Below are positions 6,101 through 40,902 of a stretch of 44,612 bases of DNA, in pieces. Position numbers and translations under genes: made by a program. The notes beneath the pieces are model-generated. The model saw only the letters and a list, made by a program, of their open reading frames with translations. It was not told where the DNA came from and did not search any database. Source of the DNA: a virus; IMG/VR virus record IMGVR_UViG_3300046535_000596, positions 1 through 44,612 of that record; one strand, given 5' to 3'. Position 1 is the first letter of the stretch, and each line of letters starts with the position of its first letter.

Positions 6101-6324
6101 GCGGGTTCCTCACTTTTCGCCAGCGATTTACGCCGTTCGTATTCCTCACGAACCCACGGGTTTCGGCCGAGCCATTCCAGCGTCGCGCGGGCGGCTCCGA
6201 GGCCGATCTGCGTTGCGTCAACCTCGTCGTCTTTCCAGCCGTGGACGCGAATCGACGCGCCATTGGCGGCGATTATTTCGGACGCGGAATTGATGGCGGC
6301 GATTTGGGCGGGGAGGGTGGTCAT
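6097..6324 (-). CDS. Hypothetical protein, 75 aa
   Basis: The product is MTTLPAQIAAINSASEIIAA... with a C-terminal charged helix (NPWVREEYERRKSLAKSEEP). It overlaps both neighbours by 4 nt (ATGA). No recognised family; the sequence GLGAARATLEWLGRNPW suggests a compact helical fold. Confidence 0.65.
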   Translation of the reverse strand: MTTLPAQIAAINSASEIIAANGASIRVHGWKDDEVDATQIGLGAARATLEWLGRNPWVREEYERRKSLAKSEEPA

Positions 6325-6728
6325 GCGGCGTCCTTAGATTCGATGCCCCAAAGAGACAGAACCCGGCGCGTATCATCTATAGAGCGCACCACAGCCCAAG
6401 GAACGCCCGCAGCGTCCAAAGCCGATCCGAACGCCTTCTGGGGCGCAGACATCACGCCCTTGTCGTCCTTGACCTCTAGAAAGCACAGGCGCCCGCTTTC
6501 CGTGATGATGGTCAGATCGAAAACGCCAGCGAGAACACCAAGGCGTTTGAACTCGGCGGCCTCGCGGGCCGACCGCTTTCCCCCATTGGCTGCGTGGAAC
6601 ACCAGCGCGCCCGGCAGGACGAGCCGCAGATAATCGACAATTGCAATGTGGATCGGCGTCTCAGCGGGGCGATGGCCGGCTTTGCGCGATTTGGTCGGGA
6701 GGCCGGATAGTGAAGGAACGCGGCCCAT
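6321..6728 (-). CDS. VRR-NUC domain nuclease
   Basis: A 135-aa protein with the layout of stand-alone phage VRR-NUC nucleases. An N-terminal helix (ETPIHIAIVDYLRLVLPGAL) precedes HAANGGKRSAREAAEFKRLG, then the PD-(D/E)XK core with Asp in GVFDLTII and E-x-K in CFLEVKDDKG. These proteins are thought to process branched DNA during phage replication or recombination. It abuts the GapR-like gene (ATG at 6728 equals that gene's final base) and overlaps the next gene by 4 nt. Confidence 0.88.
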   Translation of the reverse strand: MGRVPSLSGLPTKSRKAGHRPAETPIHIAIVDYLRLVLPGALVFHAANGGKRSAREAAEFKRLGVLAGVFDLTIITESGRLCFLEVKDDKGVMSAPQKAFGSALDAAGVPWAVVRSIDDTRRVLSLWGIESKDAA

Positions 6729-16339: not shown

Positions 16340-16653
16340 GCCGCCCTCTGGTTTACACGCCCGACGAAGCGGCGCTTGCCCTCAAGTGCTCGCCCGCCCA
16401 TGTCCGCGCTATGATCGGACGCGGTGAAATCCCTGCTTTCCGATTGGGCGGGAAACTGCTTAGAATCCGTGCGTCCGATCTGGAGGCCATGCTATGCCCA
16501 TCGAATACAAACTCCAGCGACTGCGCGGCGGATGGTGCATCGCCGCCTATGAAGGCGGAACCCGTATCAGCCGCCGCCAGCTTGACGCTGGCGATGCAGC
16601 GGCGGCGGCAATCGAATTTGCCGAAATCGTCGCGGACGCCGGCAAGCCCATAG
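16336..16653 (+). CDS. xis: Excisionase-like HTH protein
   Basis: A 105-aa protein. Residues 7-53 form a MerR/excisionase (HTH_17) fold: YTPDEAALALKCSPAHVRAM followed by IGRGEIPAFRLGGKLLRIRA and SDLEAML. The tail (residues ~54-105) is low-complexity and is read in a frame overlapping the first 160 nt of the integrase. This xis-int overlap is a known layout in alphaproteobacterial prophages. It probably binds near attP to direct excision and may repress int. Confidence 0.78.
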   Translation: MSRPLVYTPDEAALALKCSPAHVRAMIGRGEIPAFRLGGKLLRIRASDLEAMLCPSNTNSSDCAADGASPPMKAEPVSAAASLTLAMQRRRQSNLPKSSRTPASP

Positions 16654-17492
16654 ACCCGGCCATTGCCGAGATTTGGGCGGCGTATCGTGCGGATCGGGCG
16701 GGCCGGCGCATTGCTGAGAATATGGAATGGAGCGGGCGCGCGATCTTGCCGGTGTTCGGCGCGATGAAGCCTATGTCGATCACGTCGAAGGATTGCCGCG
16801 CTTATGCCAAGGCCCGCAAGGCGTCCGGGCGCCAGGCTGGCACGATCTGCACCGAACTTGCGCACCTTCGCGTGTGTCTGGCGTGGGCTGTCAAGTCCCG
16901 CATGATCCGAGAGGCGCCGCACATCGAGCGCCCGCAACTTCCGCCTCCGTGCGAGCGCCACCTCGCGCGCTCGGAGGCTGAGCGCGTCATTAACGCCGCT
17001 GTCGCGCCGCATGTGCGCTTGTTTATCGTGCTGGCGATTTCGACCGCCGCGCGGGCGACAGCTCTGCTAGAGCTAAAATGGGACCGGATCGACTTTGAGC
17101 GCGGGTTGATCGTGCTTGGAGATCCTGACCGGACGATGCGCCAGAAGGGCCGGGCGACGGTCCCGATGACCAACACGGCCCGGGCCGCGCTATCATCAGC
17201 CAGGGAAGGCGCGCGAACTGAATATGTGATCGAGCATGGCGGCGCCCCGATCAAGTCGGCCAAGAAGGGCGTCGCGGAGGCCGCACGCCGGGCCGGCGTC
17301 AATGGCTGCACCCCGCATGTCTTTCGCCATACGGCTGCGGTCTGGATGGCTGAGGATGGTGTTCCAATGAGCCAGATTGCTGCGCTGTTGGGCCATGCGG
17401 ATTCAGCGATCACGGAGCGTGTCTATGCGAAGTGGGCGCCGGATCATTTGCGCACGGCGAGTGCAAGTTTGGAAATGAAGATTTTTAAGTGA
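16494..17492 (+). CDS. int: Tyrosine recombinase / phage integrase
   Basis: A 332-aa protein with an N-terminal arm-binding region (MPIEYKLQRLRGGWCIAAYE), core-binding SAM-like domain (~60-160) and catalytic domain. Catalytic residues visible: Arg in AISTAARATALLELKWDRID, Lys region after VTMTNTARAAL-type beta turn, H-x-x-R in TPHVFRHTAAVWMA, His in AALLGHADSAITE and the nucleophile Tyr in RVYAKWAPDH. It catalyses site-specific integration and excision at attP, which lies 280 bp downstream. All key residues are present, so it should be active. Confidence 0.93.
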   Translation: MPIEYKLQRLRGGWCIAAYEGGTRISRRQLDAGDAAAAAIEFAEIVADAGKPIDPAIAEIWAAYRADRAGRRIAENMEWSGRAILPVFGAMKPMSITSKDCRAYAKARKASGRQAGTICTELAHLRVCLAWAVKSRMIREAPHIERPQLPPPCERHLARSEAERVINAAVAPHVRLFIVLAISTAARATALLELKWDRIDFERGLIVLGDPDRTMRQKGRATVPMTNTARAALSSAREGARTEYVIEHGGAPIKSAKKGVAEAARRAGVNGCTPHVFRHTAAVWMAEDGVPMSQIAALLGHADSAITERVYAKWAPDHLRTASASLEMKIFK

Positions 17493-19038: not shown

Positions 19039-19158
19039 ACGCAAAAAAAACCGCCCCGGCGTGAACCGAGGCGGGCCGAGCGCGGAGTATTGAGCGGCTA
19101 CGGCGCAAGCCGCCTCGGCAATTTCCGCCGAAGGTGAGCATTCGTAAGCGTCATCCAT
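19027..19158 (-). CDS. Possible small protein, 43 aa, reading through the late terminator
   Basis: ATG 19158 (MDDAYECSPSAEIAEAACAV) follows the DUF6378 stop by 10 nt with GGGGCAGCC in between. The frame runs through the terminator stem and stops 8 codons past it, so an mRNA ended at the terminator would lack a stop codon. Either the gene is not real or read-through transcripts express it. Confidence 0.3.
   Translation of the reverse strand: MDDAYECSPSAEIAEAACAVAAQYSALGPPRFTPGRFFLRSRA
19043..19074 (-). terminator. Rho-independent terminator of the leftward late operon
   Basis: On the minus strand CCGCCTCGG, loop TTCACG, CCGGGGCGG and then a run of eight T form a strong intrinsic terminator. 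It closes the long leftward late unit where it meets the rightward operon ending at 19038. The plus strand has no T-tract after the stem, so it works one way. Confidence 0.85.
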
Positions 19159-19623: not shown

Positions 19624-20892
19624 TCACGCGGCGTTCTTCCTCGCGGGCAAGACGGTCACGGTGGACCGCCCGTCCTCGCCGCCCTCGCGGTCATAGATGA
19701 TCGACTTAAGCGAGCGTCCTGCGTCGTAGCCCTCTCCCCAATGCCAAGCGTCGCCGGGCGCCATGATCTGATGACATTCCGTAATGCATCCCCGGCCTTC
19801 GGTGATGCCGACTTGCGTTATGTGCTTATGGAAGCCGTGGGCGAAGCGGTGTCTGGCAAGTCCCCACATTTCAGGCTCACGCGCAGCCATAACGCCCGGC
19901 ATGTCCTTAAGCTTGGTCGTGTGCGTGTGTGTCATTCCAAGCATTACCCTCCCAAAAAGGCGGTAACGGTGGATCGCTGGAGAAATATCAACAATAACGC
20001 GCGGATCATTTCGGAACCACGCATGAAGAAAAAACGAAATTGCGTAACTTGCGTGCTCGTCGTGATTACCTGGAAGCGTGATTATTTCGATAATACGATG
20101 GTTTTGCAATAGCAAATTTGCGACTTCAACAATCGTGTCGCAGGCTTTTAACAGAACCTTTGGGTAACGGCCATCGACTTGCAGAGCATTTCCGCTGCGC
20201 GCGGTTTTGTTTTCGTTTGAATCTGCGTGGAGGGTGTCGCCCCCGATTAAAAGGATCGCCCGTTCCGTTTTCGGCGTCCGATCTGCGACCTTGCCGAACG
20301 TCTCAAGCATGACGCGGGCGCCAATTTTCAAATCCCAGTTTTCGGCAGCGTCTCCCTCCCAGCAATGAACGCCGAAATGCGGATCGCCCCAAGGGTATAG
20401 TGCAAGCAAATCCTCGTATTTTGCGGCCGGCGCCCTTGTCGGCTGAGCGCATGGCTTGAAGTTGGCGAAATGCGCAGCCAGATCATCAACGAATAGGCGC
20501 GGGTTGATGCCATCGCGCGTCTTGACCCAAGACTGGACGACGCGGCCTTCGGCGTCCACAAGGCTTGAAACGCCCTTGACGATATGGCCCTGTGGGAGCG
20601 CGAACTTTTCGCCGGCCTCGCGCTTTTGCTGGACGAATGTCTTTTGCACCTCGCCATCGGCATCGAGTTGGCTCGAAACCCGCGAGACTTCAAATCCGGG
20701 CATGACCGGCGCGAAGCCCAAAAGCCCCTTGGCCGCGATGTTTTTCAACCGGCTTTGCAGGGTAGTTCGGCGCATATCGTTGAGATGCCGTGCAGCGGCG
20801 GATTTATTGATCGACCCGTCAGGGTTGCGGGTTGCTTCAATGGCGGCGAGGGTTTCGGCGATCTGTTCGTCAGTAAGGGCTATTCCGGTCAT
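19624..20892 (-). CDS. Winged-HTH plus metallophosphoesterase protein, 422 aa
   Basis: An N-terminal HTH-like segment (PDGSINKSAAARHLNDMRRT) precedes a calcineurin-like phosphoesterase domain from about residue 165. Metal-binding motifs are YPWGDPHFGVHCWE (D-x-H), ILLIGGDTLHADSN (GD), TLPGNHDEHASYA (GNHD) and MLGMTHTHTTKL (H-x-H). The expected metal ligands are present, so it should be active on a phosphoester, DNA or nucleotide. Proteins of this layout are common in phage genomes of Proteobacteria, often labelled oxidoreductase in error. It lies after the lysis cassette. A good ribosome site (GAGAGGGGGACGC) precedes ATG 20892. Confidence 0.85.
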   Translation of the reverse strand: MTGIALTDEQIAETLAAIEATRNPDGSINKSAAARHLNDMRRTTLQSRLKNIAAKGLLGFAPVMPGFEVSRVSSQLDADGEVQKTFVQQKREAGEKFALPQGHIVKGVSSLVDAEGRVVQSWVKTRDGINPRLFVDDLAAHFANFKPCAQPTRAPAAKYEDLLALYPWGDPHFGVHCWEGDAAENWDLKIGARVMLETFGKVADRTPKTERAILLIGGDTLHADSNENKTARSGNALQVDGRYPKVLLKACDTIVEVANLLLQNHRIIEIITLPGNHDEHASYAISFFLHAWFRNDPRVIVDISPAIHRYRLFGRVMLGMTHTHTTKLKDMPGVMAAREPEMWGLARHRFAHGFHKHITQVGITEGRGCITECHQIMAPGDAWHWGEGYDAGRSLKSIIYDREGGEDGRSTVTVLPARKNAA

Positions 20893-36067: not shown

Positions 36068-36726
36068 TAGGCGATTTCCGTCACGGTACCGAATGAGCCA
36101 TTCGGATCGATCAGCGTATCGCCGGTCAGTTCAATCTCGGCAAATTTGGTGTCGATGATCGAAATCGCTTTGTCGGGGATGCACAGGACGTTGGTGAAGA
36201 TCCACTCGTGACGAAGGCCAACGCTGTTGGTCTGCGTGAGTTTGATCTGACACTGAAAGCCGGCGCGGGCGAGGACTTGCGTCACCTGGGTTCCGACCGT
36301 TCCGGTGGTGGTGCCGAGAACGCCAATCGCCAGATTGTAGGTGGTGATTTCGTCGCAGACGACAGTGACCTTGCCGCCAACCTGGGTGATAACCTTGGCG
36401 TCCTGCGTCATCGAGAACGAGCGCGAGGTATAATGGTCGAGCGTCTTCAGGTCGGGCTTGAACTCGAATTTCGGGCAGTTGCCGATGTCCACCCAATTGA
36501 TATAGGCGAGCGTCGCGGTTCCGTCCGTCACGCTGGACGTGGTGCCGGTTGGCGCCGTGGCGCTGGTCGTCCCGCCCGTGGTGACGTTGTAAATAGCGCC
36601 AGCGACAGTCATGAGGGACTGCCCGACCAGAACCGGCGTGGTTGCGGTCCAGAGGCTAGGGGCGGCGGAATAGGCTCGTACGGATACGATGCCCTTACCA
36701 ATCATATAGTTGGCGGGAGAGGCCAT
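36067..36726 (-). CDS. Major tail tube protein, 219 aa
   Basis: ATG 36726 (MASPANYMIGKGIVSVRAYS) follows the structured leader and GGAG 8 nt upstream. The beta-rich sequence TAPTGTTSSVTDGTATLAYI and the signature segment ALVKTLDHYTSRSFSMTQDA-like (LKTLDHYTSRSFSMTQDAKV) are typical of phage tail tube proteins, as is the end RHEWIFTNVLCIPDKAISII. Position between tail terminator and chaperone genes agrees. It polymerises around the tape measure to form the tube and is made in many copies. Confidence 0.85.
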   Translation of the reverse strand: MASPANYMIGKGIVSVRAYSAAPSLWTATTPVLVGQSLMTVAGAIYNVTTGGTTSATAPTGTTSSVTDGTATLAYINWVDIGNCPKFEFKPDLKTLDHYTSRSFSMTQDAKVITQVGGKVTVVCDEITTYNLAIGVLGTTTGTVGTQVTQVLARAGFQCQIKLTQTNSVGLRHEWIFTNVLCIPDKAISIIDTKFAEIELTGDTLIDPNGSFGTVTEIA

Positions 36727-36737
36727 TTGTGAGGCTC

Positions 36738-36792
36738 CATCAGGGGAATGGCGCGTCATCACGACGGGCCGGAATGGTCTTGCCTAAGGACC
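36738..36792 (-). promoter_or_regulatory. Structured leader RNA upstream of the tail tube gene (copy 2)
   Basis: On the minus strand the RNA folds as three stem-loops. SL1 (36792-36776) is GGTC/GACC around CTTAGGCAA. SL2 (36770-36750) is GGC-C-CGTC/GACG-C-GCC with loop GTGAT. SL3 (36750-36738) is CATT/GATG around CCCCT and runs into the GGAG ribosome site. Loops and order match the capsid leader, with compensatory stem changes. It likely tunes translation or RNA stability of the tail tube mRNA. Confidence 0.7.
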
Positions 36793-36807
36793 AGATTGGG
36801 CGTTCCG

Positions 36808-38514: not shown

Positions 38515-38572
38515 GAAAGCCTCCCGTTCAGAAAGAAAGGGCGCCGGAAGTGATCCCGGCGCCCGTGCGCGA

Positions 38573-39790
38573 TTAGGTCGCGGAGTTGGCGTAATAGGCG
38601 ATGGGATGCGTGCCGGCGTCCACAAGGGCGCCGTCGAAACGCTGCCAGAGCATGAAGCCAACCTGAGCATAATCGGCGTAACGCTCGGTCAAGCGCATAG
38701 CCACAGCGCCGTTGACGCGGCGGATGTAGTAGTTCTTAAAGTCGCCGAACAGCACGGACTTGGCGTTGGCCGCCATGCTCGCAACCTGCTGGTTGATCAC
38801 ATAGGGATAGCCGTTGATGGTGTCCGGGTCGTTCGAGGCGAGGCCAGCGAGCCACAGCGGGCGGCCGTAGCTATCCTTGAGCTTCTTGATCACTTTGAGC
38901 GACGAATCGTTCATCATGAAGCGCGCGTTCTGGCGATAGGCCGGGTCCACCGAATGTTCCAGATCGATCAAATCATCATAGATGATCGATGTGGTCTGGC
39001 CGGTCAGGCCGACCTTGCCCGATGTCGCATCGAGAACGACGCCACGGGGAACCGTGGTTCCGGCGCCGGTCGTGAAGTGCGTGTTCGTGATTCTCGCAAT
39101 GCGGGTCGCCAGCTTGTTGGCGATGAACGCATCGAGGTCGAACGCCGAATCCTGCAAAAGCTGCAAGGAGATGAGGACAGCCTTGGAGCTGTACATAAAC
39201 GCACCGAGCGTCACCTGGCCGAAGGTGATGTCTTGGTTGGCGACCTGGGTGTTTTCCGAGATGATCGCGCCGACGTTGGCGGTATCATTATCGGTCGGGA
39301 TCGGCAGGCTCTGGCCGGAATCGGTGTCGAGCACTTCCGAAACAGCCAGCATTCCGCCGTAAGCAAGCTGCGCGTCGATCAGTTTGCGATAGAAGCCGGT
39401 CGGGACGGTGTAGCCGCCCGCCGTGGTCGTGGTGCTCTGCGCGTTCTGGAACGACTTGCGCGAAACGGCGCGTTCGGCGTCATTCAGGGACGAAGCTCCG
39501 AAGCGCATGAACTTGTTGAAGGCAGAGTTTTCGATTTCGGCTTCATGCTCGGCCTGATCGATAGAGACGCCGGAAACGCGGGCGCGGTTGCCGATGACGA
39601 CCGACATTTCGGCGTCGAGCAGTTCGGCGCGTTCGATGCGGTCAATCTGCGCCTTGATCTCGTCGCCCTTTTCCATCAGGGCGTCGAAAGCGGCGTTGTC
39701 TTCGTTGGAGGGGTTTGCCTTGTCAACGAGCGCGCGAGCGTCCGCAACAAGCTGTGCGCGCTCAGCGCGCAAGTCTTTGGCAATAGCCAT
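38573..39790 (-). CDS. HK97-fold major capsid protein, 405 aa
   Basis: The N-terminal ~105 residues form a charged helical delta domain (LRAERAQLVADARALVDKAN; IKAQIDRIERAELLDAEMSV), normally removed by the prohead protease. The rest shows the HK97 fold pattern: TTTAGGYTVPTGFYRKLIDA, GFITFGQVTLGAF-like (QDITFGQVTLGAFMYSSKAV), DLIDLEHSVDPAYRQNARFM and ADYAQVGFMLWQRFDGALVD. The S14-type protease upstream fits. GGAG 10 nt before ATG 39790 adjoins the structured leader. It forms the icosahedral shell, the most abundant virion protein. Confidence 0.93.
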   Translation of the reverse strand: MAIAKDLRAERAQLVADARALVDKANPSNEDNAAFDALMEKGDEIKAQIDRIERAELLDAEMSVVIGNRARVSGVSIDQAEHEAEIENSAFNKFMRFGASSLNDAERAVSRKSFQNAQSTTTTAGGYTVPTGFYRKLIDAQLAYGGMLAVSEVLDTDSGQSLPIPTDNDTANVGAIISENTQVANQDITFGQVTLGAFMYSSKAVLISLQLLQDSAFDLDAFIANKLATRIARITNTHFTTGAGTTVPRGVVLDATSGKVGLTGQTTSIIYDDLIDLEHSVDPAYRQNARFMMNDSSLKVIKKLKDSYGRPLWLAGLASNDPDTINGYPYVINQQVASMAANAKSVLFGDFKNYYIRRVNGAVAMRLTERYADYAQVGFMLWQRFDGALVDAGTHPIAYYANSAT

Positions 39791-39803
39791 TTGGGTTAGG
39801 CTC

Positions 39804-39856
39804 CATCAGGGGATGGGCGCGCAATCACTGCGGGCCGATGACCTTGCCCAAGGGTC
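39804..39856 (-). promoter_or_regulatory. Structured leader RNA upstream of the capsid gene (copy 1)
   Basis: Three stem-loops on the minus strand: SL1 (39856-39840) GACC/GGTC around CTTGGGCAA; SL2 (39836-39816) GGC-C-CGCA/TGCG-C-GCC with loop GTGAT; SL3 (39815-39804) CATC/GATG around CCCT, its last G being the first base of the GGAG ribosome site. The tail tube leader (36792-36738) has the same order and loops. It likely controls translation or stability of capsid mRNA. Confidence 0.72.
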
Positions 39857-39866
39857 GTTGGGGCAT

Positions 39867-39896
39867 AAAAAAACCGCCCAAATGGACGGCTTTTTT
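39867..39896. terminator. Bidirectional intrinsic terminator before the capsid leader
   Basis: The stem GCCGTCC/GGGCGGT (minus strand, with G-U pairs) is followed by seven T; on the plus strand it is followed by six T. It lies between the 39941-40186 gene and the capsid gene and ends 10 nt before SL1, leaving no room for a promoter between them. Confidence 0.8.
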
Positions 39897-39902
39897 AGAG
39901 GT

Positions 39903-39924
39903 TGGCCCGCTTCAAAGCGGGCCA
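39903..39924. repeat. Perfect 8-bp hairpin beside the terminator
   Basis: TGGCCCGC-TTCAAA-GCGGGCCA is a perfect inverted repeat 6 bp from the terminator. There is no T-tract directly after it. Stacked hairpins here may slow polymerase or block exonuclease from the 3' end of the upstream transcript. Confidence 0.75.
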
Positions 39925-39940
39925 GAATCGGGCAAATGCG

Positions 39941-40186
39941 CTACTCGGATCGCGCCGATTCAAATTCGTGATACTGACGCTCTGGCGTCCATGTATATTC
40001 AGGATCAAACCGAACGATGGACGGGACAGTCATACGGTCGGCGCGAACCTCAACGCGCTTTGCATGAAGGAATATTTGGCGAACAAACACGGTAGGGATG
40101 CCGAACTTTTTGCCGACAACATGAAACCTCATGCCAGATTTGCAGCACTCCACGATTTGACGCTCGCGATCTTTAGACGGGCTCAT
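39941..40186 (-). CDS. HTH-like small protein between protease and capsid genes, 81 aa
   Basis: MSPSKDRERQIVECCKSGMR followed by FHVVGKKFGIPTVFVRQIFL reads like a sigma-factor region 4 / HTH fold with a recognition helix around TVFVRQIFLHAKRVEV. It overlaps the protease stop by 4 nt. A DNA-binding protein placed inside the head module is unusual; it could regulate late transcription. The C-terminus is acidic (ERQYHEFESARSE). Confidence 0.6.
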   Translation of the reverse strand: MSPSKDRERQIVECCKSGMRFHVVGKKFGIPTVFVRQIFLHAKRVEVRADRMTVPSIVRFDPEYTWTPERQYHEFESARSE

Positions 40187-40902
40187 GCAACCTCGGCGAT
40201 TCTCAGGCGCATTCTCATGCGCGAAATCGAGTTCTTTTTCTCGTCCGGCTCGTTCTCTTCGTCCGGGTCTTTCGGGTCGGGCTCTTCGTCCGAATCCGGG
40301 TCAATGGCGTCGATCAGGCCGGCGTCTTTGGCTTCGCTCGCGGTGAACCACGTTCCATCGACATCGCCGTCCATCAGCGCCGCGCATTCCGCAACAGACT
40401 TGCCGCATTTGGCCGCGTAGATCGACGCCAATTGATTGTCGAGCTTGCCGAGGGTGGACGCCATGTCCATCATGTCAGCCTTATTTCCGACCGCCATTCC
40501 CCAAGCGTTGTGGACCATCAGGAACGCGTTTTCCGCCATGCAGACCTTATCGGCCGCCAGCGCGATAAACGACGCCGCAGAGGCCGCCAGGCCGTCAACA
40601 ATCGCAGTGACGTGCGCGGGATGGGCCTTGAGCGCCGAATAGATCGCGATGCCGTCGAACACGTCGCCGCCGGGCGAGTTGATGTGCATGACGATGTTTT
40701 TAGTTTTCACGCCAGCAAGTTGAGCCTGAAAGTCCTTGGCCGTGACGCCATAAAATCCGATTTCGTCGTAAAGATAGACGTCGGTGCAGTCGCCCGCCGC
40801 CGCAGCCTCAAACCGAACCGCCTTGGGCGCCGCGTCCTTGGGAGAGCGGTTTTCGAAATGCGCCCGCCAGTTTTTGCGAACAGCGTCTAGCGATTGGTTC
40901 AT
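40183..40902 (-). CDS. ClpP-like (S14) prohead protease, 239 aa
   Basis: The ClpP fold shows NIVMHINSPGGDVFDGIAIY, then IVDGLAASAASFIALAADKV with the catalytic Ser in AASAAS and ENAFLMVHNAWGMAVGNKAD with the catalytic His. The Asp is expected further on near GLIDAIDPDS. The acidic, Glu-rich end (SDEEPDPKDPDEENEPDEKK) may be a scaffold-like tail. It cleaves the capsid delta domain during maturation. It overlaps the portal gene by 4 nt. Confidence 0.9.
   Translation of the reverse strand: MNQSLDAVRKNWRAHFENRSPKDAAPKAVRFEAAAAGDCTDVYLYDEIGFYGVTAKDFQAQLAGVKTKNIVMHINSPGGDVFDGIAIYSALKAHPAHVTAIVDGLAASAASFIALAADKVCMAENAFLMVHNAWGMAVGNKADMMDMASTLGKLDNQLASIYAAKCGKSVAECAALMDGDVDGTWFTASEAKDAGLIDAIDPDSDEEPDPKDPDEENEPDEKKNSISRMRMRLRIAEVA

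Follow-up and report, generated by a model that had tools for sequence, protein, structure and literature searches.

How does a capsid mRNA arise if an intrinsic terminator stands directly in front of the capsid gene, inside the very operon that encodes it? This question is raised by a 44.6-kb virus contig (IMG/VR record IMGVR_UViG_3300046535_000596, 44,612 nt), which is referred to as the window. An earlier note on this DNA had described a bidirectional terminator at the locus and had named read-through, antitermination or a promoter overlapping the hairpins as possible sources of the capsid message.

The terminator and its place in the late operon

The window encodes an integrase-like gene at 16494-17492 (E 9e-47), and the phage is therefore probably temperate, i.e., able to lie dormant in its host. 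A search for isolated phages of similar DNA yielded none. All virion (late) genes are located on the minus strand, and the upstream end of their operon falls beyond the contig. The genes encode the terminase large subunit (43879-42179), the portal (42194-40899), a ClpP-type head maturation protease (40183-40902), a product of 81 aa with weak HTH resemblance (small ORF, 39941-40186, between protease gene and terminator) and the major capsid protein (38573-39790; Phage_capsid PF05065, E 4e-65), followed by four small genes and the major tail gene (36726-36067). According to our own simple ORF calls, neighbouring late genes between the contig end and the tail genes abut or overlap, save at a few gaps: 150 nt before the capsid gene, 58 nt between the capsid end and the next ATG, 96 nt before the major tail gene, and two more further down, one preceding the tape measure gene and one at 28.9-29.1 kb.

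The terminator was found at 39896-39867 of the minus, i.e., the coding strand, at the coordinates given by the earlier note. It reads AAAAAA-GCCGUCC-AUUU-GGGCGGU-UUUUUU and is composed of an A-tract, a 7-bp stem (39890-39873) with an AUUU loop and a tract of seven U (39873-39867), so that on the transcribed strand a stable GC-rich hairpin runs straight into a U-rich tract. On this strand a 44-nt stretch folds with -18.1 kcal/mol (z -4.7, 0/200 shuffles as good), the hairpin is present in both the MFE and the centroid fold, and the d-score of the core is +23 to +27; the termination efficiency is a predicted value only. On the plus strand the same stretch reaches just -9.3 kcal/mol (z -0.5, 51/200 shuffles as good) with a d-score of -43.6, and the U-G pair of the minus strand becomes a C.A mismatch which breaks the stem. 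The terminator is hence one-way, and its description as bidirectional has to be abandoned. Its position between the protease gene and the capsid gene was given correctly, but the HTH label attached to the neighboring small ORF corresponds to sub-threshold matches only (HTH_SB and Sigma70_r4, E 0.05-0.07).

A generic terminator scan of the window did not include 39896-39867 among its calls, probably because the A-tract pairs with the U-tract and thereby masks the tail. In a scan for very strong stems the terminator was unranked because its core amounts to only about -9 to -11 kcal/mol. A further strong terminator of the window lies at 19051-19074 on the minus strand (10-bp stem, eight U, d +54). 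Concerning an attenuator or riboswitch, the sequence upstream of the terminator varies among relatives and no Rfam family was matched at the gathering score. The match to ColE1 RNA I (39865-39968, minus strand; 35.5 bits, gathering score 47) derives mostly from the generic hairpin and terminator and was taken as chance; a match to the Leu leader (27.6 bits), likewise below its gathering score and of the same origin, was rejected too. Judged by its sequence, the capsid-front terminator is an ordinary kind of signal in an unusual place.

Directly 3' of the capsid gene (38530-38564, minus strand) a strong hairpin (38564-38539) carries a UUUCUUU tail. It is the lowest-energy hairpin with a T-rich tail that was found on the minus strand of the window. 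Within the densely packed late operon, the capsid cistron is bracketed by predicted terminator-type elements.

The leader RNA and its probable decayed copies

Between terminator and capsid gene lies the capsid leader RNA (39788-39860, minus strand), which scores 72.2 bits with our leader model and shows covariation. It comprises hairpin A (39856-39840), hairpin B (39836-39816), a Shine-Dalgarno-like GAUGGAG (39807-39801) and the capsid ATG (39790-39788). Hairpin B, which varies less than hairpin A, consists of a 3-bp outer stem, a C.C mismatch and a 4-bp inner stem with covariation at its two inner pairs; its loop is mostly GUGA or GCGA (GNRA-type) and is followed by GAUGGAG and the start codon. 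Another copy of the leader is present in the window ahead of the major tail gene (36724-36796, minus strand; 74.1 bits). Copies detected in a search with the leader core represent about 119 distinct contexts (loci L001-L009, L092-L206, L241-L413), in which the genes that follow encode capsid, major-tail or tail-fibre proteins and belong to unrelated families.

In an alignment of 33 leader copies 98.7% of the pair cells were standard and 34 cells were double-changed. None of 500 shuffles matched the paired percentage, the double-change cells or the covariation score, the aligned copies being related and these shuffle counts not being probabilities. Sliding of the pairing partners abolished the pairing. 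On the basis of this alignment we regard the leader as a genuine structured, covarying RNA element. No Rfam family matched the leader at the gathering score, Rfam analysis of four copy-bearing loci (L008, L113, L167, L240) returned tRNA only, and in those parts of the literature that were accessible to us neither the leader nor the arrangement was found described. The leader is possibly a new phage RNA family. In nearly all copies a UCC within 39801-39816 (minus strand) can pair with the GGA of the Shine-Dalgarno sequence. This pairing might hide the ribosome site; the UCC and GGA positions hardly vary, so that covariation cannot test it.

A class-wide genome scan, covering the class of a Hyphomicrobiales MAG, detected the leader in one genome out of 289. 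An intact leader is also present before a tail-fibre gene of Sinorhizobium medicae plasmid pSU277_1 (about 413.1 kb; positions 19994-20063 of locus L240), probably in a prophage on this megaplasmid, which makes a named isolate available for testing the leader.

The second hairpin in front of the capsid gene, described by the earlier note as a perfect 8-bp hairpin, does exist at 39903-39924 (minus strand), but its stem comprises 9 bp. It has a UUGA loop, lacks a U-tract and, with a d-score of about -35, is not a terminator. The leader model matches it weakly (14.8 bits, E 0.014), and its equivalents in two relatives, GGCCCGCU-UUGA-AGCGCGCC in L008 and GGCCUGCU-GUGA-AGCGCGCC in L412, resemble hairpin B of the leader more closely than the hairpin of the window does. 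Owing to this likeness, the second hairpin is probably an old, decayed extra copy of hairpin B. Besides these three partly decayed copies, each located beside an intact hairpin B, further such copies were observed at L008 8059-8157, L306 587-641 and L359 near 10330, likewise beside an intact one. The extra copies suggest a tandem duplication of the leader.

Conservation of the terminator and its order with the leader

The earlier note had proposed to look for a conserved hairpin and for the same order of elements in related phages. The hairpin is conserved: every capsid-clade relative in which the upstream region is covered has kept the terminator. Contigs with capsids of 92-100% identity contributed five more distinct versions (L004/L006, L007, L410, L412 and L005, the last with a largely different stem in the same place), and in all versions from capsid-clade contigs seven U are followed by RUGCC and then by the leader. 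An alignment of nine terminators, three of them located before tail leaders and all of them related sequences from metagenomic contigs, contained standard pairs in 54/54 cells, an invariant U7 and compensatory double changes at two pairs. In relatives the element after the capsid gene occurs with two unrelated stem types, which also carry compensatory changes, and with a constant UUUCUUU. These compensatory stem changes indicate that the capsid-front and the post-capsid elements are both kept as structures.

Such conservation bears on the possibility that the terminator is a leftover of mosaic exchange with little function, either introduced together with an inserted gene (moron) or marking a joint left by recombination. 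Consistent with an exchange, the small ORF and the stretch with the second hairpin, right beside the terminator, are present or absent among relatives and are missing together in L003, L004, L006, L007 and L410. All five of these relatives nevertheless retain the terminator, which is therefore not part of the inserted gene, so that a moron terminator gained and lost with that gene was rejected. Together with the compensatory stem changes and the invariant U-tract, this renders a mosaic leftover highly improbable.

The expected order of terminator, leader and capsid gene was recovered in the close relatives but does not constitute a general rule. A predicted terminator is located just upstream of the leader in 10/119 contexts, compared with 12/184 other same-strand gaps (p = 0.65), and an architecture shared by all leader-bearing phages was thus dismissed. 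Since terminators are no commoner before leaders than in other gaps, the combination of terminator and leader is, as far as these predictions go, a clade feature. The front of the tail leader carries a terminator with U-tract in L007, L008 and L168 but not in the window, L002-L004 and L006; in the window it is preceded by a plain, short hairpin with a GCAA loop and without U-tract. As homologous tail leaders occur both with and without a terminator, the leader-bearing downstream genes cannot depend on it. HK97-type capsid genes as a whole show no enrichment of upstream terminators either (11/65 loci vs. 27/211 controls, the controls being gaps of 30 nt or more); seven of these 11 loci belong to the present clade and three to one other lineage. 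As a separate observation from another phage lineage, a very strong terminator (stem of about 14 bp plus UUUUU) is directly followed by a short divergent leader after the tail gene (L100 11640-11730, L166 about 1007-1085, L167 about 6271-6345, L257 and L281).

Stable hairpins of any kind show a different distribution. Of 35 independent leader contexts, 63% have such a hairpin, mostly lacking a U-tract, ahead of the leader, as against 18% for 49 other gaps (p 2e-6; the control gaps of this and the preceding comparisons derive from simple ORF calls). This association favours the main rival explanation, a boundary element of the mRNA: an endonuclease would cut the U-rich linker between hairpin and leader, the hairpin would guard the 3' end of the terminase-portal-protease mRNA, the leader hairpins would shield a stable capsid mRNA at its 5' end, and U-tracts would be optional. 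The hairpin is often found close behind the stop codon of the preceding gene, and the structured, covarying nature of the leader fits as well. However, the invariant U7 of the capsid clade is a signature of termination and not of processing, and a hairpin is equally expected if it is part of the leader itself. We therefore consider RNA processing at this site somewhat unlikely.

Origin of the capsid message and comparison with known systems

The earlier note had argued that the leader starts too close to the terminator for a promoter in between, and this argument holds, as hairpin A begins only 11 nt past the U-tract. Its further option, a promoter overlapping the hairpins, found no support: a scan of the minus strand near the capsid gene and the terminator revealed no sigma70-like site, neither at the hairpins nor elsewhere in this region. 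A capsid-specific promoter, overlapping the hairpins or located in the small ORF or the protease end, with the terminator as its insulator, would correspond to a common arrangement and would meet the demand for more capsid than portal or protease. Besides the missing promoter-like site, it is opposed by the relatives lacking the small ORF, which have only a short stretch between protease stop and stem, and by the other leaders, where the distance from the end of the upstream gene is often just 0-30 nt. Such a promoter is less likely than RNA processing and, on the whole, very unlikely.

With no room for a promoter, no promoter-like site overlapping the hairpins and an order kept in relatives, read-through or antitermination, as put forward in the earlier note, is the likeliest route to the capsid mRNA, and the findings suggest that capsid messages come from polymerase passing the stop signals. 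In our best explanation, to which we assign about an even chance, an ordinary sense-strand terminator would be read through by the late polymerase and would block stray transcription and/or set mRNA ends. The late RNA polymerase would start far upstream, before the terminase genes, and would pass the terminator by antitermination or partial read-through. In the prophage state the terminator pair could keep stray, unmodified transcription out of the heavily translated capsid gene, and during lytic growth the terminators would generate 3' ends of mRNA next to this cistron. The leader would be a separate, portable RNA element acting on the capsid message, either on translation start or on stability. 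It counts against this explanation that a strong terminator without antitermination would depress capsid expression, contrary to the needs of this gene. No antiterminator gene was identified in the contig, which ends before the upstream end of the operon, and no transcript data for these phages were found in the accessible parts of the literature searched. As an unlikely extension, we also considered a cassette of hairpin-U, leader and hairpin-U which, inside a single late transcript, would make the capsid cistron a discrete, stable message with strong translation of its own. The portable part of such a cassette would be the leader, which recurs in many phages ahead of tail and fibre genes and may be a new RNA family.

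The way in which phages draw hundreds of capsid subunits but few portals from a single transcript has mostly been worked out in a small set of model phages. With a conserved terminator in front of a capsid gene that has no promoter-like site close by, read-through or antitermination can be tested directly in a little-studied phage group, and the finding draws attention to a structured leader that is widespread in front of virion genes.

Among known systems, intrinsic (Rho-independent) terminators share with the present one the short GC-rich stem, the AUUU loop, the seven-U tract, the leading A-tract and a d-score well above 0. Here, however, the signal is located before the most demanded gene of the virion operon and not at an operon end. 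Lambda N/Q and HK022 put antitermination likewise involve terminators inside operons that need read-through, but no N, Q or put element was identified here, and in contrast to HK022 put the conserved leader is located downstream of the terminator and joined to the start codon. The leader itself was also considered as a put RNA, an element which follows closely behind an early promoter, and was set apart by its location, being operon-internal, adjoining the Shine-Dalgarno sequence and the ATG, and having no promoter-like site before it. Stem-loops at the 5' end of ompA mRNA and intercistronic hairpins of the puf operon set differential mRNA stability. They resemble the present hairpins in their position at cistron boundaries beside a highly expressed gene, whereas the elements described here have an invariant U-tract. 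T7 T-phi and the terminator of gene VIII in filamentous phages are terminator-type hairpins after the main coat or capsid gene, as is the hairpin at 38564-38539. What distinguishes the present locus from them is that the capsid gene is also preceded by such an element, no promoter being known between the two.
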